Below, in pieces: positions 4,936 through 26,599 of a DNA stretch of 64,000 bases. Position numbers and translations under genes: made by a program. The notes beneath the pieces were generated by a model. The model was not told where the DNA came from, searched no databases, and saw only the letters and a program-made list of their open reading frames with translations. Origin of the DNA: Cohaesibacter gelatinilyticus (lineage in GTDB: Bacteria; Pseudomonadota; Alphaproteobacteria; Rhizobiales; Cohaesibacteraceae). The DNA lies in contig NZ_OBEL01000004.1 of NCBI RefSeq assembly GCF_900215605.1, positions 310,001-374,000 of the forward strand. Reading direction: 5' to 3'. The stretch's first letter is position 1; the number at the start of each line of letters is the position of its first letter.

Positions 4936-4963
4936 TCCGAACAATCATTGGAATGATCACAAT

Positions 4964-5001
4964 GAAAAAATGACGACGGCCAGTTGCAATGCCGTCGTCA
5001 T
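4964..5001 (-). terminator. Rho-independent terminator of phnY
   Basis: ATGACGACGGC (4970-4980) and GCCGTCGTCAT (4991-5001) make a perfect 11-bp stem with a 10-base loop. On the minus strand the stem is followed by a run of six T (AAAAAA at 4964-4969 on the plus strand), so it fits termination of the phnWAY transcript. It may also stop the convergent DeoR transcript. Confidence 0.85.
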
Positions 5002-5026
5002 CAAGTTGTGGGGAATTATTTTAACT

Positions 5027-6475: not shown

Positions 6476-6568
6476 TTACAAGCCTTTCCTTCTGGGCTCA
6501 GGACATACCGATCCAAATTGTCGGGACAGAGATTACCGTCCCGATATCATAGTTCTCCGCATCAAGTG

Positions 6569-7813: not shown

Positions 7814-7850
7814 ATCTTTTCCTTACTTGGGTCGTTTCAAACAATTGAAG

Positions 7851-9038: not shown

Positions 9039-9116
9039 TTGCATTCTCCGAAGTTAATTTCGTCCCCACTATTGCAGTGCACCCATCCATATGTAAAATT
9101 GTAAATTACAATGAAA

Positions 9117-9135
9117 CCATAAGCTGAGCTTATGG
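9117..9135. promoter_or_regulatory. LysR-type operator in the phnW/LysR intergenic region
   Basis: CCATAAGC (9117-9124), TGA, GCTTATGG (9128-9135) is a perfect inverted repeat that includes the T-N11-A pattern of LysR-type sites. It lies 22 bases before the LysR start and 79 before phnW. The inner 15 bases match a site upstream of aepX at 14 of 15 positions. Confidence 0.7.
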
Positions 9136-9156
9136 AATTAATTTTGGGAATTTCTT

Positions 9157-10029
9157 ATGCGTTACAGTCAGTTAAAAGCTTTTCATCATGTTGCAATGCT
9201 TGGTGGTTTTTCACGCGCGGCGGAAGCTCTGTATTTGACGCAACCCGCTATTTCCGAACAGGTGAGAAAACTTGAACAAGCTCACGATGTTCTGCTCTTC
9301 ACACGAGAGCGAAAACGCATTTTTTTAACCCCGGAAGGGGAACGCCTTTTCCGTCTGACAAAGCAGTTTTTTGAAATTGAACAACAAATCGAGGACTATA
9401 TTTCAGAATCCGGAGCAGCAATTGACGGAGAGTTGCGTGTCATTGTCGACTCCGCTCATCATATTACCGAAATTCTCAGTCGTTTTCGCAAGCGCTATCC
9501 CAATGTGACAGTTACCTTGCGTACGGGAAATTCGGAAGATGTTGTGAGCCAATTGCGCAGTTATGACGCCGAAATTGGTGTTATTGGCAGCCTTAGACCT
9601 GGCAATGACATGAAGATGCAGAAACTTTCGACTACTGAAATCATCGCATTTGCCTCACGAGACCTTATTCCGGATAGCATGTGTCATATATCTCTTGCTG
9701 AATTGGCTGATTATCCGCTTATTTTCCGGGAAGAAGGCTCCAAAACGCGCCAGAAACTGGAAGAAGCCTTGCGGGAACAAAATTTTACGCATCGTCCAGC
9801 GATTGTTGCCGAAGGTCGAGAGGCAGTTCAAGCTATCGTTGCATCGGGTGCCGGAGTGGGCTTTGTCTCTCAAGCCGAATATGGATTGGATGAAAGAGTG
9901 CGCCCTCTGCCAATAGATGAACTCAATATCACCATGAGTGAAGCCCTGATTCATTTGACGCAGCGGAGCGATGTAAAGCTGATCCGTGCATTCATGGATG
10001 TCGCCAATACCGTGCTGGCTGAACGTTGA
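9157..10029 (+). CDS. LysR-family regulator of the 2-AEP genes
   Basis: 290 residues. The N-terminal HTH 'MRYSQLKAFHHVAMLGGFSRAAEALYLTQPAISEQVRKLE' region is typical of LysR proteins, followed by the effector-binding fold. Its divergence from phnW, and a dyad motif shared with the aepX promoter, argue that it activates 2-AEP uptake and breakdown (inference). This resembles the LysR proteins that control phosphate-insensitive 2-AEP use in other proteobacteria. The inducer is probably 2-AEP or a pathway intermediate, but the sequence does not show which. Confidence 0.88.
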   Translation: MRYSQLKAFHHVAMLGGFSRAAEALYLTQPAISEQVRKLEQAHDVLLFTRERKRIFLTPEGERLFRLTKQFFEIEQQIEDYISESGAAIDGELRVIVDSAHHITEILSRFRKRYPNVTVTLRTGNSEDVVSQLRSYDAEIGVIGSLRPGNDMKMQKLSTTEIIAFASRDLIPDSMCHISLAELADYPLIFREEGSKTRQKLEEALREQNFTHRPAIVAEGREAVQAIVASGAGVGFVSQAEYGLDERVRPLPIDELNITMSEALIHLTQRSDVKLIRAFMDVANTVLAER

Positions 10030-10040
10030 CATTCATGAGA

Positions 10041-10067
10041 ATGCCGCCAGATGAGTTCCGGCGGCAT
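10041..10067. terminator. GC-rich hairpin between convergent LysR and aepW genes
   Basis: ATGCCGCC (10041-10048) and GGCGGCAT (10060-10067) form a perfect 8-bp stem with an 11-base loop. There is no strong T-run on either side, so termination is plausible but weaker than at the other hairpins in the window. Confidence 0.4.
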
Positions 10068-10123
10068 GTTAGGACGTAGATTCATAGATGATCTGGATTT
10101 GGTAGATGCAAGGAAATCTTCTT

Positions 10124-12139
10124 CTATCTGAATCTCCAGGCCTGTGTGCGGGTTAGCAACCCTTTGGAAATGACCAAATGCAGGATACGGGCTGCGGCAT
10201 TGGTATAGAAGATCATCATACCCATTGCGGCGGCTGGTGCGATATCACCGGCGTCATCCATATTCAGCACCGCGATTGATGCCAGGGTTGTCTTGGGTGA
10301 ATAGAGAAAGACAACTGCAGAGACCGTCGTCATGGCATTGACGAACAGATAGATGGAAATATCCAGAACTGCTGGTAGACATACCGGCACCGTAACGCGT
10401 GTAAACAATTTCATCGTGGGTTGTTTGAGCGATGCAGAAACAGATTCAAATTCCCGATCCATTTGCTTCAATGCGGTCACAGCTGTGAGGTGAGAGACCG
10501 TATAAAAATGTGTGACGGTACAAATCACCAGAATGGCCATTGTTCCATAGAGAAAATGCAAGGGGTTGGATGGGCTGTTGAAGAAGAAGATATAAGCCAG
10601 TCCCAACACCATGCCCGGAATTGCCATGGGTAACATGGCAATCATTTGAAACAGCGAGCGGCCCACTTTGAACCCATTGGACTTTTCGACCAGATAAGCC
10701 CCGAAGAAGACGACCACGGTACCGATGATCGCAACCATCAATGCCATTTGGATAGAGTTGAAATAGGACCCCCATCCACCGCCATCCATTTTATCAAATT
10801 GATAATTATTCAGACTGAGGCTCAGATCATAGGGCCAGAACTTCACCAGAGCGGCAAACTGACAGACTGCCAGCAAACCGATAATGAACAGAGCCATGGC
10901 AGAACAATAGGCAAACAGAAGACGATCGCGTTTTTGATCTGGCTGCGGCTGAAATGGGACAGATCGTGCTGAAAGCAGGGCAACCTGTTTGGACTGCACA
11001 AAACGATCAATTCCAAATGCCAGAATAGCTGGAATGACCAGCACGACGGAGACGACGGCGCCCATCTCAAAGTTTTGCTGGCCGATCACCTGCTTGTAGA
11101 TGTCAACCGCAAGTACATTGAACTGACCTCCGATCACCTTGGGCAAACCAAAATCGGTTATTACCAGATTGAAGACCACAAAAGCGGCTGAAATCAATCC
11201 ATAGCGGGCGCCGGGAATTGTAACGGTCCAAAAGGTTCGCCATGGAGAGCTTCTCAAACTTGTCGCGGCTTCATAGAGCCTGGCATCTGATATGGCCAAC
11301 GCCGTAGAAATGATCAGGAATGCATGGGGAAAGGTAAAAAAGACCGATCCGATGACAATTCCGATGGGGCCATAGATACTTGCCCCCAGCAGCAATTCCT
11401 TCATCATGCCCTGATTGCCAAACAAATAGACCAGAGCAATACCGGGCAATAGAGAAGGCACCAGAATGGGCGCCATGGCGATCAGTCTGAATACTCCCTT
11501 GTAGCGCATGCAGCTCCGGTTCAGGGCATAGGCAAACCAGAAGGCAAGGCTGACTGTGATCATCGTTGAGATGATCGAGATCCAAAGTGAATTTTTGATG
11601 GACTGAAACAGGGCGGGTGTAGAAAAATAGCTTACGAAATTGCCCAACCCCGTTGACTTGACAGGTCGCAATTGTACTCGTCGGAATTTATTGGAGTTGA
11701 GTTCAATCCAATCCGTTCCATCATACAGCGTGGAACTGACCAGAAAACGTCCACCCTGTTCTACATTGCGTACTTTATATTTGACGGGACTGCGGAAACT
11801 GAATTTCGGAAACCATTTGGTGACTGTCAAACGACCGTCTGCTCCTGTTGTCAGATCTGCATCTGAATAAACAGGGATTTTTGCATTCAACTCGGCAGCA
11901 CTTATGATGGAACCATCAAAAATGCCGTCTTCGTTGCTTTGCTGGAACTCGAAGCGCGTCAGATCCACCCGATAGGTGGAAAACGACTTTGACAACATCG
12001 CATAGAGTGGAAATGCCAGGGAGATGATCAAATAAAGTGCAATCACAATCATTCCGCCGCGCATCATGATATCATCACGACTGAGCTTGCCTTTTATGAC
12101 TGGCCCGGCAGGCAAAGATTGCTGGGAGAGATCAGTCAT
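10124..12139 (-). CDS. aepW: 2-AEP ABC transporter permease, fused two-domain (AepW type)
   Basis: 671 residues, about twice the length of a single permease, because two binding-protein-dependent transport domains are fused. After one N-terminal helix (IVIALYLIISLAFPLYAM) and a periplasmic stretch of about 100 residues, each half has about six hydrophobic segments. The EAA-type loops can be seen: 'YEAATSLRSSPWRTFWTVTIPGA' region and 'FESVSASLKQPTMKLFTRVTVP' region. The family is the FbpB/PotBC-like permeases of the PhnSTUV and AepXVW group. The gene overlaps the ATPase gene by 8 bases. AepXVW is known from marine Stappia as a high-affinity 2-AEP importer, and the single fused permease fits that type better than PhnUV. 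Confidence 0.88.
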   Translation of the reverse strand: MTDLSQQSLPAGPVIKGKLSRDDIMMRGGMIVIALYLIISLAFPLYAMLSKSFSTYRVDLTRFEFQQSNEDGIFDGSIISAAELNAKIPVYSDADLTTGADGRLTVTKWFPKFSFRSPVKYKVRNVEQGGRFLVSSTLYDGTDWIELNSNKFRRVQLRPVKSTGLGNFVSYFSTPALFQSIKNSLWISIISTMITVSLAFWFAYALNRSCMRYKGVFRLIAMAPILVPSLLPGIALVYLFGNQGMMKELLLGASIYGPIGIVIGSVFFTFPHAFLIISTALAISDARLYEAATSLRSSPWRTFWTVTIPGARYGLISAAFVVFNLVITDFGLPKVIGGQFNVLAVDIYKQVIGQQNFEMGAVVSVVLVIPAILAFGIDRFVQSKQVALLSARSVPFQPQPDQKRDRLLFAYCSAMALFIIGLLAVCQFAALVKFWPYDLSLSLNNYQFDKMDGGGWGSYFNSIQMALMVAIIGTVVVFFGAYLVEKSNGFKVGRSLFQMIAMLPMAIPGMVLGLAYIFFFNSPSNPLHFLYGTMAILVICTVTHFYTVSHLTAVTALKQMDREFESVSASLKQPTMKLFTRVTVPVCLPAVLDISIYLFVNAMTTVSAVVFLYSPKTTLASIAVLNMDDAGDIAPAAAMGMMIFYTNAAARILHLVISKGLLTRTQAWRFR

Positions 12140-13298
12140 TATGGCGCCCTTCCTGATTGAAGCCCATAAGGCGATCCTGATCCAGTTCGATGGTCATATG
12201 GCCGCCTTCCTTCAAGCCAAGGCGTCTTACGGCGTTGATGGAGAAATCAGCAATCAGATCATTGTCCCCGAACATCTCATTGCGCAAGCGACAACGCCAG
12301 AAGGACCCTAAAAACTCCATCTCGGTTACATCGACTGTAACCGCATTTTCCGGTGTGATGATAATGTCATCTGCTCCTGGAGAACGTGCGCCCATACCAT
12401 GCGGAATGATATCCTCGGGTCGGATGGCAGCCAGAATGGCATCACCTTTGGGCAAACCATGGTGCTCGCCTTTTACAATCGTACCACCAATATCAATGAG
12501 ATTATCACCGGCAGAACGGGCCGGGAACTGATTCATCTCACCAATGAAATCAGCTACAAACAAGCTGGCCGGGTGGCGATAGACCTGTGTTGGTGATCCC
12601 ACCTGCTCAATGACACCATGATTCATCACCACAATCCGATCAGCCATGGCCAATGCTTCTTCCTGATCGTGGGTTACCATCACAGTTGTAACACCCAGTT
12701 TTCGTTGCAACTCTTTGATTTCATGACGTAGATGCACTCGTACTTTGGCATCCAGAGCCGACAATGGCTCGTCCAGAAGCAAAAGACCGGGATTGGTTGC
12801 AATGGCACGTGCGAGTGCTATTCGTTGTTGCTGTCCCCCGGACAATTGTGCGGGATATTTGTCCCCCTGATCAGGTAGACCGACCAGTTCCAATAGCTCG
12901 TTTACCCGACCGGAAATTTCGTCCTTGCTACGCCCCATATTCTCAAGGCCAAAAGCGATGTTCTTCTTGATAGTCAGATTGGGGAACAGGGCATATGACT
13001 GAAAGACAATTCCAAAATCGCGCTCCGATGGAGGCAGGTTTGAAACATCCAGCCCATTCTGGGTCATACTTCCCTGAGTTTGCAGATCCAGTCCGGCAAT
13101 GGCGCGCAACAACGTGGTCTTGCCACATCCTGAGGGGCCAAGAAAACAGACAAATTCACCTTCATTGATATCGAGCGAGATATCCTTCAAGGCCAGAAAC
13201 GTGCCAAAGGCTTTCCAAAGATTTTTGATGCTCAGATACAATTTGGGAGAAGGCACAGCTTCGCCCTCTGCATCTTGCAGGGCGGTCATGGTTTGCAT
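12132..13298 (-). CDS. aepV: 2-AEP ABC transporter ATPase (AepV type)
   Basis: 388 residues. Walker A GPSGCGKTT, Q-loop, signature LSGGQQQRIALARA, Walker B LLLLDEP and the H-loop TVMVTHDQEEALAMADR are all present, so it should be active. A C-terminal TOBE-like regulatory domain (about residues 265-388) marks the spermidine/iron/phosphonate subgroup. It energises import of 2-AEP with AepX and AepW. A second in-frame ATG three codons in is an alternative start; neither has a strong ribosome site. Confidence 0.9.
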   Translation of the reverse strand: MQTMTALQDAEGEAVPSPKLYLSIKNLWKAFGTFLALKDISLDINEGEFVCFLGPSGCGKTTLLRAIAGLDLQTQGSMTQNGLDVSNLPPSERDFGIVFQSYALFPNLTIKKNIAFGLENMGRSKDEISGRVNELLELVGLPDQGDKYPAQLSGGQQQRIALARAIATNPGLLLLDEPLSALDAKVRVHLRHEIKELQRKLGVTTVMVTHDQEEALAMADRIVVMNHGVIEQVGSPTQVYRHPASLFVADFIGEMNQFPARSAGDNLIDIGGTIVKGEHHGLPKGDAILAAIRPEDIIPHGMGARSPGADDIIITPENAVTVDVTEMEFLGSFWRCRLRNEMFGDNDLIADFSINAVRRLGLKEGGHMTIELDQDRLMGFNQEGRHND

Positions 13299-13350
13299 AA
13301 TTACGATCTTTCAGGGACTTGTTGGAGCATCCGCTTGTTGCAGCGGAAAA

Positions 13351-13380
13351 GCAGGAGCCAGTATTGGTCAAGGCTCCTGC
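13351..13380 (-). terminator. Hairpin between aepX and aepV, possible attenuator
   Basis: GCAGGAGCC (13351-13359) and GGCTCCTGC (13372-13380) form a perfect 9-bp stem. On the minus strand the stem is followed by TTTTCC. It lies just after the aepX stop and before aepV, where partial termination or 3'-end protection would give more binding protein than transporter. A smaller perfect hairpin, TCCGCT/AGCGGA, lies at 13330-13347. Confidence 0.55.
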
Positions 13381-13404
13381 CTTCATCAAGAAACCAAAGG
13401 CTTA

Positions 13405-14424
13405 TCACTTTGGATCAGATTTACCATCATAGCGTTCCTGCCACTTTTTCAAGATACTGGCACGATTGACGGCTGCAAACACAAAGTCGTTATTGATCAT
13501 TGCATCAGCCAGACCTTCTGGAAAATGCTCAACCGGTTTCGCAATACCAGGATATGCTACGACCGCATAGCCTTTGTTATACATTTTGTTGGCATCCTTG
13601 GTGACCGTAAAATCAACAAGCTTTTTCGCTGCGTCCAGTTTTTCGGTCCCTGCAATGATTGCAGTGGCTTCCATATCCCAGCCTACACCTTCAGAAGGAA
13701 CAATAATCTCAAGAGGCGCTCCTGCGGCCTTGGATTTTGCGCCACGAAAAGCAAATGAGATACCGATTGGAATTTCACCGGCAGCAGCCAGTTTGCATGG
13801 CTTGGAACCTGAATGGGTATAGCGTGCTATATTTTGATGCAAGGCATCCATATACTCCCAACCACCCTTGTCACCAAATAGTTGCAACCAGCTTGATACA
13901 TCCAAAAAGCCGGTCCCGGATGAGTTCGGGTTCGGCATGATCACATGGCCCTTATATTGGGGATCCGTCAGATCTTTCCAGGATTTTGGTGGAGTCAGGC
14001 CCGCTTTTTTTGCTTCTACCGTGTTGTAGCAAACAGAAGCAATCCATGCATCCATTCCAACCCATGACGGCGGTGTATCATCATCTACGAACTTGCGGTC
14101 CAAGTTCTCGACACCTTTGGGAGCATATGGCTCCAGCATGCCTTCCGACTTCAGAAGCAACAATGAGGTAGCAGCAAGACCCCAAACGACATCTGCTTGC
14201 GGGTTATCTCGCTCGGCCAGCAGTTTGGCGGTAATGATCCCTGTGGAATCACGCACCCAATTGATTTTGATGTCGGGATATTTTTCATTGAAAGTCTCGG
14301 CATACCGACCAAGATCTTCAGCTTCTACTGCTGTATAGACCGTCAGCTCTGTTTCTGCCAATGCACTTGTTGCGAGTCCAAGTGAAAACACACAAGCCGT
14401 AAAAAGGCCAATCTTTGATGACAT
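13405..14424 (-). CDS. aepX: 2-AEP ABC transporter substrate-binding protein (AepX type)
   Basis: 339 residues from the ATG at 14424, with a strong GGAGGAG upstream. A Sec signal peptide is evident (SSKIGLFTACVFSLGLATSALA, cut before ETELTVYT). The mature part is an iron/AEP-type extracellular binding protein of the PhnS/AepX group, with 'YTAVEAEDLGRYAETFNEKYP' region, PNPNSSGTGFLDVSSWLQ and SKPCKLAAAGEIPIGISFAFRGAK. It captures 2-AEP in the periplasm for AepVW. A motif matching the phnW operator stands 122 bases upstream. Confidence 0.9.
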   Translation of the reverse strand: MSSKIGLFTACVFSLGLATSALAETELTVYTAVEAEDLGRYAETFNEKYPDIKINWVRDSTGIITAKLLAERDNPQADVVWGLAATSLLLLKSEGMLEPYAPKGVENLDRKFVDDDTPPSWVGMDAWIASVCYNTVEAKKAGLTPPKSWKDLTDPQYKGHVIMPNPNSSGTGFLDVSSWLQLFGDKGGWEYMDALHQNIARYTHSGSKPCKLAAAGEIPIGISFAFRGAKSKAAGAPLEIIVPSEGVGWDMEATAIIAGTEKLDAAKKLVDFTVTKDANKMYNKGYAVVAYPGIAKPVEHFPEGLADAMINNDFVFAAVNRASILKKWQERYDGKSDPK

Positions 14425-14545
14425 ATTTATTCTCCTCCAAAGGTGATGCTGGCCAGGCATTCTTTCCGACCCGGTCCGGCTTTAACTGGATTACAGTAGT
14501 TTCGCAGTTTTTTTGGACAAGAAAAATCGATTATGCCTACCATAC

Positions 14546-14693: not shown

Positions 14694-15809
14694 CTAGATC
14701 GCATCAAGGGCAGTTCGCATATCGCGGATACCCTCGCCTATTTTGTCCTGATAGCGCAACAGGCTGCCGCCGAGCAGATAGACAACATCATCTCCATACA
14801 TCCCTGCCATATCGGCAGCGCGCTCGACGCTCATACCACCACCGGGGCTTGGCAACATAGTCTGACCGATGCTGTCATCTTCTGTACAAGCCTTGGCTAT
14901 GGATTGGCACTGCTCTTTTGTGAAGCCAAACCGCCCCCCTACATTCGGAAAGACCGAAATGTCAGTACCAGCCAGACGCTGCAATGTTCCAAACATCATG
15001 GCATGGGTGAAGCCAAGTTGCTCTGATAGTACATAGGGGCCAAGAAAAGCTGGATGCGCCATGATTGGCAAGTCGAGATCAGGAGCACGGGCCAGATGAT
15101 CAATTGCAGCAAAGCCGAAATGACCCGGCATTATCAGCAGGCCACCTGCTCCGGCTTCTTTTGCGAATTTCGCAAAAGCATCAATCTCTCCCACATGACC
15201 AGCAATATTGGGGAAATAGAGAGCATTGCCACCCGTTTCAGCATTCGCTTTGGCAACAGCAGCACTTATGGCTTCAACTCTTTGCTTGAACGGAGCCATA
15301 TGCTGGTTTGTCAGACCATGATCATCCTTGATGATATCGGCCCCGGCCAGAGCGCAAAGATAAGCAATCGTAGCCAGATCTTCGACGCTTGAGCCTTGAG
15401 GTTTGATCACCGGGGAAATCATCCCGCCTGTGGGACGACCCAGTTTCTGACGAAGTCCCTTGATGCCAAAACGCGGCCCCTTGAAACGGCTGGCAAGCGT
15501 TTCTCCCAAATCCAGATCAATCACCTTGAGACCGGTTTGAATGCTGGAATTGCCAAAGATCACATTGTTGAGCTGTGCCAGTTCGTCACCGACACTATCA
15601 GGGCTGTAGGAGATGATCGCCTTGAAAGTACCCTCACTCTCCTGTCCGATTTCTTCTACCTTTCCCAGAATTTCATCTTCGATATAGCCCTTGGGCACGA
15701 TATCGCGCGGAATTTCGACCGTTTGCTCAAGGGCGATATTCTCGGCCCGTTGTTTTGCCTCCTCAATATTGGAAGCAAAAATCCGGTAAGTGACGGTAAA
15801 TCGGGACAT
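14694..15809 (-). CDS. RuBisCO-like protein (form IV RLP)
   Basis: 371 residues, shorter than true RuBisCO large chains (about 450-480). Conserved active-site blocks are recognisable: GGMISPVIKPQGSS with K136 (RuBisCO Lys175 position), GADIIKDDHG with K161 (the carbamylated Lys201 position) and D163, IMAHPAF with H252, and SPGGGMSVERAADM. The metal-binding Glu204 position reads His164, and the loop-6 Lys334 motif is replaced by NVGGRFGFT. It therefore cannot be a carboxylase. Known RLPs enolise or isomerise 5-methylthioribulose-1-phosphate derivatives or act on apionate-derived phosphates. It is last in an operon with a split transketolase and close to MtnK- and MtnA-like genes, so a methylthio- or deoxy-pentulose phosphate is the likely substrate (inference). 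Confidence 0.9.
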   Translation of the reverse strand: MSRFTVTYRIFASNIEEAKQRAENIALEQTVEIPRDIVPKGYIEDEILGKVEEIGQESEGTFKAIISYSPDSVGDELAQLNNVIFGNSSIQTGLKVIDLDLGETLASRFKGPRFGIKGLRQKLGRPTGGMISPVIKPQGSSVEDLATIAYLCALAGADIIKDDHGLTNQHMAPFKQRVEAISAAVAKANAETGGNALYFPNIAGHVGEIDAFAKFAKEAGAGGLLIMPGHFGFAAIDHLARAPDLDLPIMAHPAFLGPYVLSEQLGFTHAMMFGTLQRLAGTDISVFPNVGGRFGFTKEQCQSIAKACTEDDSIGQTMLPSPGGGMSVERAADMAGMYGDDVVYLLGGSLLRYQDKIGEGIRDMRTALDAI

Positions 15810-15869: not shown

Positions 15870-16874
15870 CTACAGCCCTTCTGCCTTTGCGGTGGAATGA
15901 ACAGCCTCAACACGCACGGCGTCCAGATCCTGCTCGCTCACACCTGTAGGCATCCCGAGTAATTGATCAACACCTTGAACCAAGGCCAGTGCATCCAAAC
16001 CATAATGGCGCATGAGATAAGGCCGTGAACCACCATGAGCATAGGTGTCTTTGAGGCCAAGCCGGATCAGCTTTTTCCCAACCCCAGCATCAGCCATAGT
16101 CTCTGCTACCAGGGAACCGATGCCGCCCGCTATCACATGATTTTCCAGCGTGATCACACCCTTTTTGACAGAGCCTATATGATCGAGCAATGCCTTGGCG
16201 TCAAATGGCTTGATCGTGTGCAAATGCAGGTGACGGATGGAAACGCCAGCTTGCTTGAGAGCATCAGAAGCTCGCATGGCTTCCTCGGTGGTGATACCGG
16301 CCGTCACGACCAATACATCATCCCCGTCAGACAGAAGGCGCATCTCTCCTACCTTGATGGGACTATCGAACAAGCGTGGAACCTGCCCGCGCAATACCCG
16401 GCAATAGACCGGGCCATCAATGCTGTCAGCGGCTTCGCAGATGCTTTCCACTTCGCTCGCATCACCTGTCTCCAAAATGGTCATATTGGGAATGGACCGC
16501 ATGATGGAGATATCTTCAATCGCCTGATGGGTCATGCCGCCAGGGGTCGTAACACCGGGCAAGAAACCCATGAGCCGCACTTTGCGGCGCGGATAGGCAA
16601 CCGATGCCATCAACTGATCATAGGGGCGACGATAGAGGAAAACGCCGAATGTATGAATGAATGGGCGATAACCAGCCAATCCCAATCCGCCAGCAAAGCT
16701 GAGCATATTCTGCTCTGCCATGCCAAGGGACAGGAATTGTTCTGGATGTCGATCACGGAAGCCATCTATCTCGCAAGACGATGTCAGATCCGCAGACAAA
16801 CAAAGGACGTCCGGGTTTGCCAAAGCGTGTTTTTCAAAAGCCGCTGCATAAGGGCGGGTGACCATTTCGACCAT
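15870..16874 (-). CDS. Transketolase, C-terminal (pyrimidine-binding) subunit
   Basis: 334 residues from an ATG preceded by GGGAGAG; upstream in-frame codons overlap the partner gene. It contains the Pyr domain with catalytic-type Glu54 in SLGMAEQNMLSFAGGLG, then the C-terminal transketolase domain. 'SLGMAEQNM' and 'MGFLPGVTTPGGMTHQAIED' are typical of split transketolases. It follows the N-terminal subunit gene by 19 bases and precedes the RLP gene by 60 bases, in one minus-strand operon. Similar split transketolases serve specialised sugar pathways, such as apulose-4-phosphate transketolase AptAB, rather than the pentose phosphate cycle. The donor substrate here is unknown. Confidence 0.88.
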   Translation of the reverse strand: MVEMVTRPYAAAFEKHALANPDVLCLSADLTSSCEIDGFRDRHPEQFLSLGMAEQNMLSFAGGLGLAGYRPFIHTFGVFLYRRPYDQLMASVAYPRRKVRLMGFLPGVTTPGGMTHQAIEDISIMRSIPNMTILETGDASEVESICEAADSIDGPVYCRVLRGQVPRLFDSPIKVGEMRLLSDGDDVLVVTAGITTEEAMRASDALKQAGVSIRHLHLHTIKPFDAKALLDHIGSVKKGVITLENHVIAGGIGSLVAETMADAGVGKKLIRLGLKDTYAHGGSRPYLMRHYGLDALALVQGVDQLLGMPTGVSEQDLDAVRVEAVHSTAKAEGL

Positions 16875-16893
16875 GTTCTTCTCTCCCTTGTGC

Positions 16894-17823
16894 TCAATGC
16901 TGATCCAACTGAACAGGCTCGATACCCAGTTCAGCCGCGATTGCAATATTCATGTCCCGACGCTCATCTTCGCTCTTGAAGCGCACGTAATGGAGACGCG
17001 GGAAGCGTTTTTTGAGAAAATCCATTCCCTGATAGGGAGAGGTTCGGGCAAGAATGATCAGGGGCTGCCCTTCATGGGCTTCCTGTTTTGCCTGACGCAT
17101 GGCTTCAATATCATGCCCGTCAATCTCGACAACAATCGCGCCGAAAGCCCTCATCTTTGTTGCAATGTCACGCACTTCCATCACGGAAGACATCGCGCCG
17201 TCGCATTGCTGATCATTCACATCCATGATGGCCCACAGATTGTCGATGCCATGATGTGCTGCTCCCTGAATGGCCTCCCATGTCTGGCCTTCCTGGACTT
17301 CGCCATCTGACATGAACACACAGACCTTGCCGGTTTCGCCGCGCTTCTTACGGCCCCATGCCAAACCGGCCCCAGTAGACAGCCCGATACCGAGGGTACC
17401 GTTATGCACTTCCATTCCGGGAGAATGTTCTGCCCCGATCATTTCGACAGATGACCCATCCTTGTTGAACATGTCCAACCCTTCCGGTGCCATGCGGCCG
17501 ACCTCGATCAAGGTGGCATAGGCTACGAGTGCATAGTGAGCAGGCGCAATGAACAGGCGATCATGGACCGGAGTAAATGGCCCGTTATAGCCTGCACCGG
17601 TGTGATAGTCGGGATTATCAGCAGACGGCACACCTTCAAAGGGTTTGGGGATCATGGGCAGAGTTGGATCACCAATATGCAGTGCTTCGTTATAGAGCCA
17701 TGCCAACTGCTCAGCAGCAGAACAAGCCTGACTGAGATAGCCACCATTGTTGCGCATCGAGTGTTCAAACACTCGACGTCTGATACCAAGCGCTATTTCG
17801 CTGCTTGTTTTGCGGTTGCTCAT
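16894..17823 (-). CDS. Transketolase, N-terminal (TPP-diphosphate-binding) subunit
   Basis: 309 residues from the ATG at 17823, preceded by GGGGAG; the operator and promoter lie just upstream of this start. The TPP motif is complete, SDGEVQEGQTWEA (from S172) through DVND (N203), with SDG replacing the usual GDG. His residues expected to contact TPP or substrate are seen in YHTGAGYN and in the 'EHSPGMEVHNGTLGIGLSTGAG' region. It forms the active enzyme with the downstream C-terminal subunit. It is the first gene of the TK-TK-RLP operon. Confidence 0.88.
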   Translation of the reverse strand: MSNRKTSSEIALGIRRRVFEHSMRNNGGYLSQACSAAEQLAWLYNEALHIGDPTLPMIPKPFEGVPSADNPDYHTGAGYNGPFTPVHDRLFIAPAHYALVAYATLIEVGRMAPEGLDMFNKDGSSVEMIGAEHSPGMEVHNGTLGIGLSTGAGLAWGRKKRGETGKVCVFMSDGEVQEGQTWEAIQGAAHHGIDNLWAIMDVNDQQCDGAMSSVMEVRDIATKMRAFGAIVVEIDGHDIEAMRQAKQEAHEGQPLIILARTSPYQGMDFLKKRFPRLHYVRFKSEDERRDMNIAIAAELGIEPVQLDQH

Positions 17824-17860: not shown

Positions 17861-17893
17861 AATATATCAAATGTCATCAATGGTGACAATTGT
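17861..17893 (-). promoter_or_regulatory. Promoter and SorC-type operator of the transketolase-RLP operon
   Basis: On the minus strand TTGTCA (17884-17889) and TATATT (17861-17866) are 17 bases apart, a good sigma-70 promoter 38 bases before the start codon. Overlapping it on the plus strand are ATCAAATGTCA (17866-17876) and TGACAATTGT (17884-17893), inverted half-sites like those of the importer promoter. Repressor binding here would cover the promoter. Confidence 0.65.
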
Positions 17894-17914: not shown

Positions 17915-17947
17915 TAAAAAAGCTCCCCGAAAATCTATCGGAGAGCT
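17915..17947 (-). terminator. Rho-independent terminator after the aldolase/SDR gene
   Basis: On the minus strand AGCTCTCCGA and TCGGGGAGCT form a 10-bp stem with one G-T wobble, spanning 17921-17947, and a T-run follows (AAAAAA-rich 17915-17922 on the plus strand). It separates the aldolase/SDR transcript from the downstream transketolase operon, which has its own promoter. Confidence 0.75.
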
Positions 17948-17986
17948 TGGTATTGAGGTTAACATCCAATTGGGCACAGAGGCAGT

Positions 17987-20050
17987 CTAACGAAGGCTAG
18001 CTTCGATATTGCCCCCATCTACGGTCAAGATATGTGCGGTGGTTCGGTGCGAACTGGCCAACATGACGAATGCCTCACCTACATGATGAGCCTCCACTTC
18101 GCGTTGCAACAGATTGCCAGCCATATAGCTCGCCTCATCCAGCCCACGTGCATTTGAACGCTCTGCAATGAAGTCATCGGTAAGCAGCCTGGACCGAATA
18201 CGGTCGGCATTGATACCATTGACCCGAATTCCTTCACCACCCAGTTCTAGCGCCAGCTGCTTGACAAGGAAGAGGCTGGTTGCTTTTGGCAAGCCATATG
18301 CCCCAAAGCCCTTGCCCGGATTGACGGCCTGCTTGGAGACATTGAGCAAGATCTGGCCTCCTCGTCCCTGATCACGCATCACTTTGATGGCCGATTGGGC
18401 CAGCTTGTGATGAGAGAAGAAGTTAAGCTCAAAGCTGCCTCGTAAAGTCTCATCAGACATCTCCGCCATAGGGCCAGACCATGCAGCGCCTGCATTGGAG
18501 ACAAGAATATCCAAGCCACCAAATCGATCGAGACAGGCATCAATGGCATTCGTCGCACCACCTTGTGCAGTCAGGTCACAGGTAACGCCACCATGTCCCG
18601 ATCCCAACTGTTTGAGAGCTTTAGCAAGTGCATCTTCATCTCTATCGACGAGGAAGATATTAGCACCTTCTTTGGCGAAAGCTTTTGCTGTTGCAAGGCC
18701 AATGGCCCCTGCTCCGCCAGTCACCAACACAATAGACCCAGTCAGTTTGGGAGGCTTGCCTTTGCCCAGTTTGGCTTGCTCCAAAGACCAATATTCCATA
18801 TCGAAGAGGTCAGCCTCTTCAATCGGGAAGAAGCCACCAGCTGCCTCGCCCCATTCGCGAACTTGTAAATTCTGCACACCAATATCAGCTGCAATGCTCG
18901 CTGCCTTGGCATTGGCACCAATGCCAATCAAACCAAGACCAGGGATCCAAGCAAGATTTGGGGTTGGGTTCAACATGGTCTTCTGACCATCAAATCTTGG
19001 AACCTGCCGATCAAAATAGGCTTTATAATCAGAAATGAACCCATCCAGCTTGGCTTTGATACCATCTGAGCCCTTGGCAAGATCAGCATGGGTCAGAACC
19101 AGCGGCTTGCCCTTGGTTCGGATCACATGATCCGGTGTGGCAACACCGCGCTGGGATAGAGCATCCAGATCCGTCCGCCCCATGAAGACTTCGATATTTG
19201 GTCCATTGCGTACATCCATGACAGGCATGGCACCATCACGGTTACCAGTATGCTCAGCGTTGGCAGCACCAATCAAACCCCGTAAGGTAGGCAGCACCTG
19301 TTCTGGCGTCATAGGCAGAGCTGGTAGCTGAACGCAAGTCGCGGGATTGGCCGCCAACTTCTTCTCAAACCACGCTTCCACCGCATTCACGTGTTCGATC
19401 ATTAGATCGTAGGATTTCTTGCCATCCTCATGGAATGTGAAATGCCCATGATTGACCAGAAGCATGCCTTCAATATCGGGATTGGCGTCATAGACATCCG
19501 CCGCAGCCTTGGCCAGCGCAAAGCCCGGCATGATATATGGCACAAGCGCAACCCGATCACCAAAGATCTCCTTGGTGACTGCTTCCACGTCCGGCAGGTT
19601 GGCCAAAGCCAGCATTGCCGTAGCATGAGTGTGATCCACGAATTTATGCGGCAGATATGCATGCAACAGTGTCTCAACTGATGGGTTCGGCCCCGTTGAA
19701 TCAATCAGATTCTGGCGCTGCACATTGACCATGTCTTCATCACTAAGACTGCCGAGACTGCGCAAAGCCATCAATGGCTGCATCTGAACACCGGGAAGGC
19801 CGGGTGCTTCAATGGTTCCCAGGTCCCAACCACTGCCTTTGACATGCAGGACATCAATGGTCTCACCAAGCAATGTCTTACGGCGGGTTTTGACGGACGT
19901 ATTCCCTCCGCCATGCATCACCAATTCCGGATCCTGCCCAATGATGCGGGAGGTATAAACACGTAAAGCCAAGTCTTGATCAGCCGGATCATCTCCTGCT
20001 GCCTCGACCAAACGCTTTGCGTCTTGATCCTGCCACCTGTATAGAACCAT
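17987..20050 (-). CDS. Bifunctional class II aldolase / short-chain dehydrogenase
   Basis: 687 residues from ATG 20050, preceded by GGAGG; longer readings would cross the divergent regulator. Residues about 25-400 are a class II aldolase/RhaD-like domain, with GGGNTSVK (47-54), zinc-ligand candidates H140 and H142 (DHTHATAM) and H201 (NHGHFTF). Residues about 438-687 are an SDR with the nucleotide motif TGGAGAIG and catalytic YxxxK (AYGLPKA). Related fusions cleave rhamnulose-1-phosphate to DHAP + lactaldehyde and then convert the aldehyde. Beside MtnK- and MtnA-like genes, a likely role is cleavage of 5-methylthio- or 5-deoxy-ribulose-1-phosphate to DHAP and an aldehyde handled by the SDR (the known 'DHAP shunt' chemistry). 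The substrate is inferred. Confidence 0.88.
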   Translation of the reverse strand: MVLYRWQDQDAKRLVEAAGDDPADQDLALRVYTSRIIGQDPELVMHGGGNTSVKTRRKTLLGETIDVLHVKGSGWDLGTIEAPGLPGVQMQPLMALRSLGSLSDEDMVNVQRQNLIDSTGPNPSVETLLHAYLPHKFVDHTHATAMLALANLPDVEAVTKEIFGDRVALVPYIMPGFALAKAAADVYDANPDIEGMLLVNHGHFTFHEDGKKSYDLMIEHVNAVEAWFEKKLAANPATCVQLPALPMTPEQVLPTLRGLIGAANAEHTGNRDGAMPVMDVRNGPNIEVFMGRTDLDALSQRGVATPDHVIRTKGKPLVLTHADLAKGSDGIKAKLDGFISDYKAYFDRQVPRFDGQKTMLNPTPNLAWIPGLGLIGIGANAKAASIAADIGVQNLQVREWGEAAGGFFPIEEADLFDMEYWSLEQAKLGKGKPPKLTGSIVLVTGGAGAIGLATAKAFAKEGANIFLVDRDEDALAKALKQLGSGHGGVTCDLTAQGGATNAIDACLDRFGGLDILVSNAGAAWSGPMAEMSDETLRGSFELNFFSHHKLAQSAIKVMRDQGRGGQILLNVSKQAVNPGKGFGAYGLPKATSLFLVKQLALELGGEGIRVNGINADRIRSRLLTDDFIAERSNARGLDEASYMAGNLLQREVEAHHVGEAFVMLASSHRTTAHILTVDGGNIEASLR

Positions 20051-20093: not shown

Positions 20094-20124
20094 TTTTGAC
20101 AAATGTCAGATAGGTGTGTCAAAT
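20094..20124. promoter_or_regulatory. SorC-type operator between aldolase and regulator genes
   Basis: Three half-sites occur: TTTTGACA (20094-20101), AATGTCA (20102-20108) and TGTCAAAT (20117-20124). The outer pair forms an inverted repeat TTTGACA-N15-TGTCAAA. The same TGTCA/TGACA elements precede the transketolase operon and the importer operon. Confidence 0.6.
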
Positions 20125-20143
20125 ATAAAATATCGGAGATCCA

Positions 20144-21118
20144 ATGGCAAATGTTGTCCGTCGCAGAGCTGCCGGCCAGATCAGTGGTGAAGATATTGTC
20201 GTGGAAGCGGCCTGGATGTATTACCACGATGCAATGAACCAGAGTGAAATTGCTAAAAAGCTGCAAGTCTCGCGCGCGACCGTTGTCAATTATCTTCAGG
20301 AAGCACGCGAAAAGGGCATCATTCGCATCAGTCTGTCTGACGACGCATTTACCGGCCATCGCGCGGCTCTTGCCTTGACCCAGAAACTCGGCTTGAAGGC
20401 CGCCTATGTACTGCCTAACGGAGCAGGAAATCAGGAGCAAGCCTTCATGCGTGTGGCATTGGGTGCTGCAGAATGGTTGCCTGACTTGTTGAAACAAGGC
20501 GATCGGTTAGGTGTTGCATGGGGGCGAACCATCTATGAGATGGCTGAAGCCATGGAACAACATGAAATGGATGATCTGGTCGTTAGCCAGTTGGTAGGCT
20601 CCATGGCCACGCCTTATGGGTTCACAGCTGAGATTTGCTCAGCACATCTGGCCCGCGCTCTTGGTGCAAAATGCATCAACCTTCATGCCCCTGCCGTACT
20701 GACAGACCCGGATCTGGCTGCCAGATTGCGCCAGGAACCCCTCATTCAATCCCAGCTGGATGCCTTGAGCCATTGTAACAAATCTGTCTTTGCGGCAGGT
20801 TCCTGTCAAAGCGACAGCCATATCGTCAGCTCCGGCGTAGCCAGTCAGGAAGACCTGGACTGGTACAAGGCCGAGGGTGCTACAGGCGTGATTTGCGGCC
20901 GCTTCATCAATGCACAAGGTGAGGCCATTCCCGGTCCTCTGGATGAACGCATGATCGGGGTGACATTGGACCGATTAAAAAATTTGGAAATGGGACTTCT
21001 GGTCTCTGATGGCCTCGACAAGGTCGAAGCCATGAATGCCTGTATCAAGGGTGGCTATGTGACCCATGTGGTCACCAGCGCCGACACCGCCCAAGCCATG
21101 CTGGATACTGCCGACTAG
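20144..21118 (+). CDS. SorC/DeoR-type sugar-binding transcriptional regulator
   Basis: 324 residues. The N-terminal HTH lies at about 27-60 (MNQSEIAKKLQVSRATVVNY), followed by a SorC sugar-phosphate-binding domain that is isomerase-like ('GDRLGVAWGRTIYEMAEAM' region, 'GVICGRFINAQGEAIPGPL' region). Such proteins bind phosphorylated sugars and repress or activate adjacent catabolic operons. It is divergent from the aldolase/SDR gene and central to the cluster. The shared operator motifs suggest it controls all three promoters (inference). Confidence 0.88.
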   Translation: MANVVRRRAAGQISGEDIVVEAAWMYYHDAMNQSEIAKKLQVSRATVVNYLQEAREKGIIRISLSDDAFTGHRAALALTQKLGLKAAYVLPNGAGNQEQAFMRVALGAAEWLPDLLKQGDRLGVAWGRTIYEMAEAMEQHEMDDLVVSQLVGSMATPYGFTAEICSAHLARALGAKCINLHAPAVLTDPDLAARLRQEPLIQSQLDALSHCNKSVFAAGSCQSDSHIVSSGVASQEDLDWYKAEGATGVICGRFINAQGEAIPGPLDERMIGVTLDRLKNLEMGLLVSDGLDKVEAMNACIKGGYVTHVVTSADTAQAMLDTAD

Positions 21119-21231: not shown

Positions 21232-22326
21232 CTATTTCGCAAATTCCGGGAAAAGACCCGCCAAACCTTCACGTGATGCATCACATACACCGCGCTCCGT
21301 GATAAGTCCGGTGACAAGACGCGACGGCGTCACGTCAAAGGCAGGGTTGCCATGCTCTGCCCCATCTGGGGAGACTTGAACCTGACCAATACTGCCATCT
21401 TCCTGTTTGCCCCATAGATGAGAAATCTCTTCTCCGTCGCGCTCTTCAATGGGAATTTCCTTCACCCCATCTTTCACGGTCCAGTCGATGGTTGGTGATG
21501 GCAGAGCCACATAGAAAGGCACATTGTTGTCATGGGCCGCCAGGGCCTTGAGATAGGTACCGATCTTGTTGCAAACATCCCCATGAGCGGTGGTCCGATC
21601 CGTCCCCACGATGACCAGATCCACCTCGCCATGCTGCATCAAATGCCCTCCGGCATTGTCAACAATCAGCTTATGCGGAACCCCATGACTGACCATCTCC
21701 CATGTCGTCAAATGGGCACCTTGATTGCGCGGGCGTGTTTCATCGACCCACACATGCACCTCGATGCCTTTTTCCAAAGCATGATAAATAGGCGAAGTGG
21801 CTGTCCCCCAATCAACCGTTGCCAGCCACCCAGCATTGCAGTGGGTGAGAATATTGACCGGCTTTCCGCATTTTTTGGCGGCAATTTCTTCAATGATCTT
21901 GAGGCCATTAAGACCGATCTGGCGGCAAATCTCGACATCTTCATCGCAAATTTCAACCGCACGCCTATAAGCTGCTTCGACCCTGTCTGCCGGCGCCAAT
22001 GGCATCAGCAAGGCACGCATATCATCCAGCGCCCATTTCAAATTGATGGCGGTCGGGCGCGTATCATGCAAGATATCCCAGGTCTCGTGCAGTGAAGCAT
22101 CCGACGGGTCGATCCCCATCTGAATGGCCATGCCAAAGGCTGCCGTCGCACCAATCAAAGGCGCACCGCGCACCCACATATCTTTGATGGCAATTGCGAC
22201 ATCCTCTCGACTGGTAAGATCCACAACGCGGAACTCGTGGGGCAACCAACGCTGGTCTATTGTCTTGACTGTGCGACCATCGTCATCGAGCCAGATCGTC
22301 CGATAGGGAGTTCCATTAACTTTCAC
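21232..22326 (-). CDS. mtnA: S-methyl-5-thioribose-1-phosphate isomerase (MtnA family)
   Basis: 364 residues. The family's catalytic residues are present: C163 in THCNAGWLA and D243 in [19 protein letters not shown], with the [13 protein letters not shown] substrate loop near 53-65. It converts methylthioribose-1-phosphate to methylthioribulose-1-phosphate. Paralogues (DrdI) do the same with 5-deoxyribose-1-phosphate and cannot be told apart by motif. Its start overlaps the end of the kinase gene by 4 bases (ATGA type), so the two are coupled. The usual downstream Met-salvage genes (mtnB, mtnC, mtnD, mtnE) are absent here. Confidence 0.9.
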
Positions 22327-23594
22327 GCGCGTGTCTCCTTTTCCATGACAAGGGCAAGCCGGGACAGGTCTGCCGGGGCGCCAAGAGCATGGCGGTTTTT
22401 GATAAGATGACGGCCAAACAAAAGAGCCTTGGTCTCACACTGAGCACGCAAAGTTTCGTCTTCAATCGTGTCCAGTTCAGCAATATGGGCCAAGCCAAGG
22501 ATGCGACGATGCATTTCCACGCCACAGAAACCCAGCATGTCCTGCCAGATTTTCGAGAGCATTTGAGTCAAGGCTTGTTCGGAGGCCAGATGATGTCCCT
22601 GATCTTCATAGAGGCTGGCAGGATAAAGGATGCCTGTCCGCTCGGTGCGCCACAGATGCGAGAATTCACTCACGAAATGTTGCCAGATGTCTTCACAGAC
22701 CTGCAGGATCCATGCTTGGTAATCCGTGCAGCCTTCAGCATCGGCGATATGTCCCGGTTGGGCGAAATAGGCCATATAGAAGTTGGCTAGCAACATGCCT
22801 ACATCAAATCCCATAGGGCCATATAGCGCAAATTCAGGATCAATGACTTTCACATCAGACGGGGTGACCATCACGGATCCGGTGTGCAGATCCCCATGCA
22901 GCATGGTTTCTGCATTGGCGCAGAAGATACTTTTGAGATGCTGCACTTCTACCTTGAGATCCATATCAGCGCGCAGTTCTGAAACAACACCATCCAAATG
23001 CGGCGTGGTGTGGCGGTTCATTTCTGCATCGAAATATGGATCATTGAAAATCAGGTTTTCGGTGATGTCACAAAGCTTGTCATTCCCTGCAAACAGAGCC
23101 ACATCTTGCTTCCGCTCCGCTGCATTCATGGAAAGATCGGATCCACGGAACAAGGTGCGTGCTACGAAATTCCCCAAGACCTCAGCCAATGTTTCATGTC
23201 TGGTGGCCGACATCAGATCATGGCGAAGAATGATGTGTGGTGTCAGAAATTCCATGATGATGAGGGCTTGCTCTTCATCGAAATGGTAAATCTCGGGCAC
23301 ACTGCCTGGATCACGAAGAGCCTGTCGCTTCAAAGCGTGATATTCAAAGAAGGCACGGCTCAGAGGCAGCGGCCAGCTATCACCGACAAGGCGCACATAT
23401 GGCAAAGCCTGCTTTACGATGACGCTTCCAGATGCGCTCTCCACAATAAAAACCAGATTGAGGTTGCCATCCCCCACTTCCTTGACCGACCATGTAGAAA
23501 TGTCTGTCCCCAGATATTCGGTGAGAACATCAAGTTTGCCTAACCTTTCCCCCAGCGTCTGAGGGGTCAAGGCTTCATACACGCTGTTCGACAT
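22323..23594 (-). CDS. mtnK: S-methyl-5-thioribose kinase (MtnK family)
   Basis: 423 residues with an aminoglycoside-phosphotransferase-like kinase fold. K61 ([10 protein letters not shown]), the catalytic loop [10 protein letters not shown] (D235) and the metal-binding [13 protein letters not shown] (from D252) match MtnK. It phosphorylates methylthioribose at C1 with ATP after import. The start has GGGAGG upstream. It is the first gene of the mtnK-mtnA pair and is divergent from the sugar importer operon. 5-Deoxyribose is an alternative or additional substrate. Confidence 0.92.
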
Positions 23595-23941
23595 GCTTCT
23601 TTCCTCCCTTGCAACGGGATGTTTCCATCACGTTGTATTCACGCCGACGATCCACATTTTTGCAGCAGGTTCAATGGTTCTGCCTATGTTGTCATCCACT
23701 TTGTTCAGGCAAATTGACCTGGCGTCGATCCCCAAAAACACGAGGGAACTTATCTCATTTCACCCGAACAGAGCTGAACCATGCCAGACATGTCCGGGTT
23801 TCCTGTCAATTTTCCTGCCTGCATCAAGGTGATGGTCAGCTTTATTCCCCCTTACCATCATAGCGATTTAATCAAATGTCAATACTATTTGACATTTGAT
23901 ACATCTTGGATTTATGCTCATGGTCGGGAGGATGTAAATCC
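23595..23941. other. Intergenic region between mtnK and the importer operon
   Basis: 347 bases without a convincing gene. The right end holds the palindromic operator and promoter of the importer. A TTGACA at the right arm of the operator (23889-23894) could serve as -35 with TATGCT (23913-23918) as a weak -10. The left 270 bases show no clear structure; mtnK must start somewhere here. Confidence 0.6.
23871..23900. promoter_or_regulatory. Palindromic operator of the sugar importer operon
   Basis: ATCAAATGTCAA (23871-23882) and TTGACATTTGAT (23889-23900) are perfect 12-bp inverted arms around TACTAT. It is the best-preserved copy of the motif that also precedes the transketolase operon and the aldolase gene. 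It covers the probable -35 of the importer promoter. Confidence 0.75.
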
Positions 23942-25471
23942 GTGGAAAATACTGCCGTTGCGCTAAACAACATTGAGAAGACCTTTGGAGCGAACCGTGT
24001 TCTGCGGGGCGTCAATCTGGATATTCCAAAAGGCAAAGTCACAGTCCTGATGGGCGCTAACGGCGCTGGAAAGTCCACCCTGGTGAAAATCCTGTGTGGC
24101 GTATATGCCCGTGATGGTGGAGACATTCGCCTTGATGGCCAAGAATTTCATCCCGAGACACCCTCACAGGCCATTCAACAAGGGGTCGTGACCGTTCATC
24201 AAAACATCAATGATGGCGTTATTCCAGACTTGGATGTTGCATCCAACCTCATGCTGGACAAGCTGGCTGGTGGGGATCGATCTTTCTTCTTCAATCCGAC
24301 AAAAAACCGGCGTGAGGCCCAAAAAATTGCTGAACGCATGGGGCTTGAGATTGATGTATCTACCGAGGTGCAGAATCTGGCCCTTGCTGATCGGCAGTTG
24401 GTCGCCATTGCCCGGGCCATGGCCCATGAGCCGAAGCTGATGATTTTGGATGAGCCGACCTCATCTCTGTCTGCAAGCGAAGCAAAAAGACTGTTTTCAC
24501 TGGTGGATATGCTGAGAGATCGTGGTGTCGCCATTCTCTATATTTCTCACAGAATGTCCGATATTCGCCGTCTGGCGAATCGCATTGTTTCCATGCGGGA
24601 TGGTGCGATATCCGGTGTGTTTGAGGAAGACAATCTGGATTATGAAGGGGCGGTCAATGCAATGCTTGGCCACCGGATGACGGACGTCGATATCGATGTG
24701 CAAGCATCAGGTTCAATCGCCCTGTCACTCGACAATGTGATCCTGAAACCCGGTGCATCCCCGATCAGTCTACAAGCTCACCGTAATGAAGTGATTGCAA
24801 TTACCGGACTTGTCGGCACAGGCAAATCCCGTCTTGCCGAAACCTTGTTTGGTGTATGCCCTGTCGAGGGGAGCATTACGGTGAATGGGGAGACTTATGC
24901 CCCCAAGACAACTGGACAGGCCATCGAGAAGGGTGTGTTTCTTTGCCCAAAGGATCGCGGTTCCAGTGCCGTTATCCCGGAAGCAGACATCACCCGTAAC
25001 ATCACCTTACCTTTCCTCAAACATATGGCAACGTTGTCATTTGTGAACAAGCGGGCAGAGCGGCGGGCGGCTCAAGAGCTGATCAGCAAGCTTGGTGTTG
25101 TCTGCCAGTCTGAGAACGATGACATCGGGACACTGTCTGGCGGCAACCAGCAAAAAGTCATGGTGGCCCGTTGGCTTTCCCAACCGTGCGATGTGCTGGT
25201 GCTCGATGAGCCATTTCAAGGGGTCGATATTGCAGCGCGCAGGGATATTGGCCGCAAATTGCGTGAAACCGCCGACCAGCGCGCAACCATCGTCATGGTG
25301 GCTGAGCTGGACGAAGCGCTGGAAATTGCCGACCGCATTCTGGTCATGGCCGAGCACACGATTGTGGGCGACCATATCAACGATGCCAATATCAATATCG
25401 ATCAGGTGCTGATGGAGGTTGCGGGGCAAGCCGCATCACCATCTGGTCATCAAGAAAAAGTTGCCAGCTAA
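23942..25471 (+). CDS. Sugar ABC transporter ATPase, two ABC domains (RbsA/CUT2 type)
   Basis: 509 residues from GTG 23942, chosen because GGGAGG stands 10 bases before it; an in-frame TTG 36 bases earlier lacks one. There are two ATPase domains. The first has Walker A MGANGAGKST, signature LALADRQLVAIARAMA and Walker B LMILDEP. The second has a degenerate Walker A (GLVGTGKSRL), signature LSGGNQQKVMVARWL and LVLDEPFQGVD. This is the RbsA/MglA pattern of CUT2 importers. Given the neighbouring kinase and isomerase it probably imports methylthioribose or a related deoxypentose (inference). Confidence 0.92.
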   Translation: MENTAVALNNIEKTFGANRVLRGVNLDIPKGKVTVLMGANGAGKSTLVKILCGVYARDGGDIRLDGQEFHPETPSQAIQQGVVTVHQNINDGVIPDLDVASNLMLDKLAGGDRSFFFNPTKNRREAQKIAERMGLEIDVSTEVQNLALADRQLVAIARAMAHEPKLMILDEPTSSLSASEAKRLFSLVDMLRDRGVAILYISHRMSDIRRLANRIVSMRDGAISGVFEEDNLDYEGAVNAMLGHRMTDVDIDVQASGSIALSLDNVILKPGASPISLQAHRNEVIAITGLVGTGKSRLAETLFGVCPVEGSITVNGETYAPKTTGQAIEKGVFLCPKDRGSSAVIPEADITRNITLPFLKHMATLSFVNKRAERRAAQELISKLGVVCQSENDDIGTLSGGNQQKVMVARWLSQPCDVLVLDEPFQGVDIAARRDIGRKLRETADQRATIVMVAELDEALEIADRILVMAEHTIVGDHINDANINIDQVLMEVAGQAASPSGHQEKVAS

Positions 25472-25513
25472 GCCCAACAGGGGCAGGCAAAAGAGCCTAT
25501 GTGAGGACATGTT

Positions 25514-26557: not shown

Positions 26558-26599
26558 CTTGAATAAAAACACTGACTTGATATTTCTTGGGAGGAAACA

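Follow-up and report, generated by a model that had tools for sequence, protein, structure and literature searches.

A split transketolase encoded by Cohaesibacter gelatinilyticus very probably takes as its substrate the product of a neighbouring RuBisCO-like protein (RLP), a 1-methylthio-ketose 5-phosphate. That it acts on this product in methylthioribose metabolism was the original prediction, and it finds strong comparative support in an exchange with the cupin CupB, gene fusion, gene linkage, a putative shared operator and the composition of the substrate pocket. A fuller explanation, in which methylthioribose would be broken down via the RLP, cleaved by the transketolase and relieved of its sulfur as methanethiol, stands in our view at about an even chance.

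The window analyzed here is a 64,000-nucleotide stretch of contig NZ_OBEL01000004.1 (positions 310,001 to 374,000). As had been proposed, it carries both halves of a split transketolase at 15870-17823 on the minus strand: TkC (15870-16874, 334 aa from ATG) is the Pyr + C subunit, with Transket_pyr and Transketolase_C domains, and TkN (16894-17823, 309 aa) is the N-terminal (PP) subunit, with a Transketolase_N domain. All of these Pfam matches exceed the curated cut-offs. The RLP gene (14694-15809, minus strand) begins 60 bp downstream of TkC. On the other side lie AldSDR, a fusion of a class II aldolase and a short-chain dehydrogenase (17987-20050, minus strand), a SorC/DeoR-type sugar-binding transcriptional regulator on the plus strand (20144-21118), mtnA for 5-methylthioribose-1-phosphate isomerase (21232-22326) and mtnK for 5-methylthioribose kinase (22323-23594), the last two on the minus strand. 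Transcription of the minus strand thus runs mtnK-mtnA, then past the opposite-strand regulator, AldSDR, TkN, TkC and RLP. An ABC importer consisting of a sugar-type ATPase, a permease and a substrate-binding protein (23942-27649, plus strand) starts at 23942 and is oriented opposite to mtnK. While MtnA and MtnK pass the curated NCBIfam cut-offs, RLP, TkN and TkC give superfamily matches and no equivalog. The importer is presumed to take up methylthioribose, the SorC/DeoR-type protein is presumed to be the regulator of the cluster, and AldSDR is a probable parallel branch, acting as a 5-methylthio-/5-deoxyribulose-1-phosphate aldolase.

A terminator-like hairpin follows AldSDR at 17920-17948 on the minus strand, which makes TkN-TkC-RLP a likely separate transcription unit. 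A single operon for all cluster genes is rejected in view of this hairpin together with the opposite-strand regulator. The expectation of an operon shared with the RLP therefore stands for TkN, TkC and RLP themselves and fails for AldSDR, which is set apart by the hairpin, and for mtnA-mtnK, which lie beyond the regulator. An operator-like perfect inverted repeat, TCAAATGTCA-N8-TGACATTTGA, is located at 23872-23899 in the mtnK/ABC promoter region (20 of 20 positions), and an N7 version of it, matching at 18 of 20 positions, at 17867-17893 in the TkN-TkC-RLP promoter region. The region that separates AldSDR from the SorC regulator holds a weaker related site, TGACAAATGTCA...GTGTCAAATAT (20097-20126); its score of 14 is by itself not above chance, and the best score over 20 shuffles of the window is 16. 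The consensus was derived from these very sites and its test value is confined to the second site and that site's uniqueness, the one at 17867 being the sole match in the whole genome (5.2 Mb) at a 7-base spacer with up to three mismatches. A putative shared operator, rather than one transcript, would tie the transketolase and RLP genes to mtnK and the importer.

Other features of the window belong to their own contexts. An apparent and separate 2-aminoethylphosphonate cluster with a PhnW-like transaminase, a LysR regulator and an ABC importer occupies 7851-14460. A cytochrome P450-like protein of 770 aa with an apparent reductase/ferredoxin-type fusion is encoded at 27795-30107, divergent from an IclR-like regulator, and an apparent fusion of 2-oxoacid dehydrogenase E1 alpha and beta (736 aa), with an acyltransferase-like gene after it, is found at 33272-36528.

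Which partner does the RLP have in related genomes? A search over 385 Alphaproteobacteria genomes returned 17 RLPs of the same clade. TkN-TkC accompany three of them, including the one in our host, and CupB accompanies 13; the remaining one (G227) is cut by a contig end. The 13 RLP-adjacent cupins form one family, 59-68% identical to the copy at locus L098, and are taken as CupB because they neighbour the RLP in the same way as CupB does in R. palustris (RPA2169-RPA2170). No CupB was found in the transketolase-type genomes G000 and G344 with a query that gave 13 hits at 1e-53 or better elsewhere, and G202, also of the transketolase type, has only a weak, generic cupin (1.3e-5). The host genome, one of these three, has no CupB by this query, which detects it in 13 control genomes, and none occurs across the 80 transketolase loci described below. 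In the RLP tree the transketolase-linked and the CupB-linked proteins form two separate groups with support of 100/100, and both clades share the catalytic residues K136, K161, D163, H164, H252, R293 and G347-G348. By clade and catalytic residues the RLP is of the R. rubrum 1,3-isomerase type, in a tree that does not include the R. rubrum sequence itself. In R. palustris the RLP forms 1-methylthio-xylulose-5-phosphate, from which CupB strips the methylthio group, and the intermediate accumulates upon deletion of CupB (PMC5893883). From these characterized relatives we infer the same product here, and the transketolase, which occupies the position that CupB has in the sister clade, would be its consumer. 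A same-family RLP at 8752-9867 of locus L135 has no adjacent transketolase; its neighbours are a dehydratase of the enolase superfamily and a sugar ABC importer, and its genome (G395) carries the transketolase in the molybdoenzyme context discussed further below.

The association extends well beyond this host. A contig scan with TkN as query yielded 80 loci, 48 of which contain an RLP. MtnA is encoded in 45 of these 48, MtnK together with the same importer in 42, and AldSDR in 35. The linkage to RLP persists among distant proteins in genomes of Shinella, Rhizobium and the Brucella group, whose RLPs are near 49% identity. Two Anaerolineae MAGs (L076 and L083) show the order ABC-mtnK-mtnA-TkN, and in one of them TkC-RLP lies on another contig, so that the module is split over two. 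Locus L057 combines a purine nucleoside phosphorylase, an MTA-deaminase-like amidohydrolase, MtnA, TkN, TkC and RLP. Two alphaproteobacterial MAGs even have MtnA and TkN fused in a single frame (L078, 648 aa, 314-2260; L080, 656 aa, 8921-10891), followed in each by TkC and RLP. Judged by these gene contexts, the link of the transketolase to methylthioribose metabolism is well supported. At three loci (L008, L049 and L071) the transketolase has no recognizable partners. Nearly identical transketolases occur in a SAR202 MAG of the Chloroflexota (L051) and an alphaproteobacterial genome (L070), and one of the two contigs may be misassigned; RbsD-like and BtpA-family genes adjoin both, and L070 additionally has a XylB-like kinase and aldehyde dehydrogenases.

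Twenty loci without RLP present a second context, in which a transketolase about 80% identical is paired with a bisC-family S/N-oxide reductase and not with RLP or Mtn genes. Of all the loci without RLP, 18 encode a Zn-dependent polyol dehydrogenase together with an FGGY kinase nearest to XylB; an AraD-like protein is present in 14, and a sulfatase and an importer of the sulfonate type in some. The stretch at 2139-14438 of locus L084 and about 19 others like it combine the split transketolase with a BisC-type molybdoenzyme, a XylB-like kinase, a polyol dehydrogenase, an AraD-like protein, an SsuA-type importer and a sulfatase; from their gene content such loci are likely catabolic clusters for a sulfur-bearing sugar or polyol. 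L053 and L057 contain both RLP and reductase. Since the molybdoenzyme-linked transketolases interleave with the RLP-linked ones in the tree, the reaction is probably the same in both contexts and only the supply different. Going by annotation, the supply without RLP would consist of reduction of a sulfoxide, oxidation of a polyol to a ketose and phosphorylation of that ketose.

AlphaFold models of each half alone reach pLDDT 82 and 83, and both have the transketolase fold. TkN is matched by 6yak (Z 27.3, rmsd 2.8, 263 aligned) and TkC by 6yaj (Z 34.9, rmsd 2.4, 294 aligned), the latter tied with DXS (Z 34). By sequence as well as fold, no PDB entry matches better than the Carboxydothermus hydrogenoformans split transketolase (6yaj/6yak). 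Neither phosphoketolase nor sulfoacetaldehyde acetyltransferase (Xsc) structures are among the structural matches listed for the two models, an absence that carries no weight. In Pfam, TkN and TkC match neither the phosphoketolase nor the Xsc families: the scan returned transketolase-type, PFOR, E1 and DXS domains only, placing the pair outside the XFP family. TkN contains an insertion (51-87) of some 27 residues, modelled with low confidence and absent from ordinary transketolases, right before the strand of the conserved His96.

By the residues compared, the cofactor site retains the ThDP machinery. The motifs named in the original prediction, S172-D173-G174...N203 in TkN and E54 in TkC, are present; an alignment of 23 TkN sequences shows no variation at D173 and N203, and one of 22 TkC sequences none at E54. 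Across 74 homologues the ThDP/Mg motif and the catalytic Glu are kept, bar one gap at the Glu column. For the substrate pocket, the canonical transketolases of the host genome and one ordinary split transketolase served as references. TkN retains H96 besides the D173/N203 Mg-ThDP motif, and TkC retains S33, H116 and R162 besides E54, and R7 is the probable phosphate-binding Arg in a part where the alignment is unsafe across the fused/split junction. Other contacts are exchanged. In TkN, I129 replaces the equivalent of yeast His103 and Y29 that of His30; in TkC, G112 replaces Asp477, and at the His469 position stands F104 or, depending on the aligner, L105, in a segment without His either way. 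In the family, His103 is Ile and His469 is Phe in 74 of 74 members, and Asp477 is Gly in 72 and Ala in two, while His69, His481, Ser386 and Arg528 (yeast numbers) are retained. In transketolases His103 contacts the C1 hydroxyl of the donor. According to Wikner (1995), as cited in PMC3352088, substrate recognition needs this residue; PMC3352088 itself lists the equivalents of His469 and Asp477 among the sugar-phosphate contacts. A hydrophobic residue at the His103 position would suit a donor whose C1 bears a methylthio, or methyl, substituent.

These observations can be arranged into a pathway. 5-Methylthioribose would be imported by the ABC transporter, phosphorylated by MtnK, isomerized by MtnA to 5-methylthioribulose-1-phosphate and converted by 1,3-isomerization on the RLP to 1-methylthio-xylulose-5-phosphate and/or its ribulose epimer. 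In CupB's role, the split transketolase would be a dedicated ThDP enzyme for this C1-methylthio ketose phosphate, cutting C2-C3 to release glyceraldehyde-3-phosphate (GAP) and leaving a methylthio-enamine on ThDP. We hold this cleavage to be quite likely, given the neighbourhood and the pocket. From the enamine, methanethiolate would most likely be expelled to give acetyl-ThDP, discharged as acetyl phosphate or acetate. Known ThDP enzymes lose analogous leaving groups, namely water or hydroxide in phosphoketolase and sulfite in Xsc, and by this analogy expulsion of methanethiol is our preferred mechanism, with the chances for and against it about balanced. It agrees with all the observations and is preferred because, among the outcomes considered, it alone would take over CupB's removal of the methylthio group, salvage the sulfur and yield central-carbon products. 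The enzyme would then be a ThDP-dependent 1-methylthio-xylulose-5-phosphate lyase ('methylthio-phosphoketolase') that breaks first a C-C bond and next a C-S bond, with GAP, methanethiol and acetyl phosphate as products. That it is all of this, that a single switch with CupB divides the RLP lineage and that the enzyme was re-used in the RLP-free clusters, probably for methylthio or methylsulfinyl sugars or polyols, we consider a slightly less than even prospect.

Further genes bear on this proposal. The host encodes an O-acetylhomoserine sulfhydrylase, a user of methanethiol, and has no PF03079 match to acireductone dioxygenase (MtnD) of the universal methionine salvage pathway, a search that was positive in five of 14 control genomes. 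Counting against the formation of acetyl phosphate, no phosphotransacetylase lies near any transketolase locus; three are encoded elsewhere in the host genome. Likewise counted against the proposal is that CupB of the relatives does the same job by a simpler reaction. Two O-acetylhomoserine-sulfhydrylase-like genes are found at 73319-77349 of contig C9 in genome G000, beside a 916-aa frame with a weak match to the transketolase N-terminal domain.

How else could these genes be read? The transketolase might cleave the RLP product and keep the methylthio group, the enamine being protonated to 2-methylthioacetaldehyde, which would then be oxidized or reduced, for example by the SDR half of AldSDR, leaving GAP as the sole carbon gain. 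The frequency of AldSDR in RLP loci (35 of the 48) speaks for this, as does the known aldolase branch, which yields 2-methylthioacetaldehyde (PMC5893883). Such a route would, however, repeat what direct aldolase action on methylthioribulose-1-phosphate achieves and make RLP and transketolase pointless; moreover, AldSDR is missing from the available stretch of 13 of the 48 RLP loci, some of which are cut at a locus or contig end, and in the host the terminator-like hairpin sets AldSDR apart. We regard it as rather unlikely. A similarly low probability goes to group transfer, in which the methylthio-acetyl C2 unit or a normal ketol would be passed to an aldose such as ribose-5-phosphate or methylthioribose, comparable to the sulfo-transketolase pathway or the formation of 7-deoxysedoheptulose. 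Split transketolases of other catabolic clusters, such as SqwGH, do transfer groups (PMC11659671), and 5-deoxyribose is elongated by a promiscuous transketolase (PMC8102628). Against this, the methylthio unit would be moved and not disposed of, all 74 members have lost Asp477 and His469, the contacts on the acceptor side, and the host has two full-length canonical transketolases available for ordinary transfer. Plain transfer to an aldose, the simpler alternative named at the outset, thus appears less likely.

The substrate itself may also be a different one. MtnK and MtnA accept both 5-methylthioribose and 5-deoxyribose (PMC10986504), and with 5-deoxyribose as true substrate MtnK, MtnA and RLP would deliver 1-deoxyxylulose-5-phosphate, to be cleaved into GAP and an acetaldehyde-level unit. 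The change of His103 to Ile fits a methyl at C1 as well, and the cluster need not be methylthio-specific, since Ald2 handles 5-deoxyribose too (PMC10986504). CupB, the partner that was replaced, acts on a methylthio group, however, and a sulfoxide-reductase-type enzyme belongs to the alternative context; this leaves the deoxy sugar improbable as the true substrate. An ordinary transketolase that rebalances the pentose phosphates during growth on methylthioribose would agree with the Carboxydothermus enzyme as best PDB match. Yet the substrate contacts are replaced in all members, whereas the ordinary split transketolase retains most of them, and both the MtnA-TkN fusion and the two canonical transketolases in the genome make this reading very unlikely.

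Compared with described systems, the preferred reading of cleavage and methanethiol release is closest to the MTA-isoprenoid shunt of R. rubrum and R. palustris (MtnP-MtnA-RLP-CupB). The two share MtnA, RLPs from neighbouring clades with the same catalytic residues and the predicted intermediate 1-methylthio-xylulose-5-phosphate. Here, in contrast, a split transketolase takes the place of the missing CupB, the route usually starts from imported methylthioribose and MtnK, and the predicted products are GAP, an acetyl unit and methanethiol instead of DXP and methanethiol. The DHAP shunt (MtnK-MtnA-Ald2) shares MtnK, MtnA and, in most loci, the aldolase (AldSDR), and unlike this cluster has neither RLP nor transketolase. 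With the Carboxydothermus split transketolase the enzyme has in common the two genes, the fold and the ThDP/Mg residues, at about 30-33% identity over structure-aligned residues, and differs by the replaced canonical His103, His469 and Asp477 and by the extra TkN segment. SqwGH, the sulfofructose transketolase, is another split transketolase recruited for the breakdown of a sulfur-bearing sugar and carries the head-group motif RAFDR in place of RSFHR (PMC11659671). This motif is not found here, where S33, R162 and the probable R7 are kept and the His is a Phe. SqwGH transfers a sulfur-free ketol, whereas here the sulfur would sit on C1 of the donor and the Arg and Ser of the phosphate side are retained. 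Phosphoketolase and Xsc resemble the proposal in the predicted expulsion of a leaving group from the ThDP enamine to acetyl-ThDP and belong to different protein families. A literature search with thin coverage of subscription journals turned up no transketolase described for the RLP or methylthio-sugar branch, so that an earlier description is possible. Split transketolases and RLP pathways are known kinds; what is new is the exchange of the final enzyme.

If the expulsion of the thiol holds true, it would be a new enzyme activity; transketolases would gain a reaction type, and the RLP branch of methylthioadenosine and methylthioribose metabolism a third fate. The exchange of partners offers a clean prediction for genes that are annotated merely as 'transketolase'. 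For the organisms that carry them, methylthioribose would then be turned into central-carbon intermediates with a possible energy gain as acetyl phosphate, and marine Rhodobacterales and soil Rhizobiales would harbour a new source of methanethiol.
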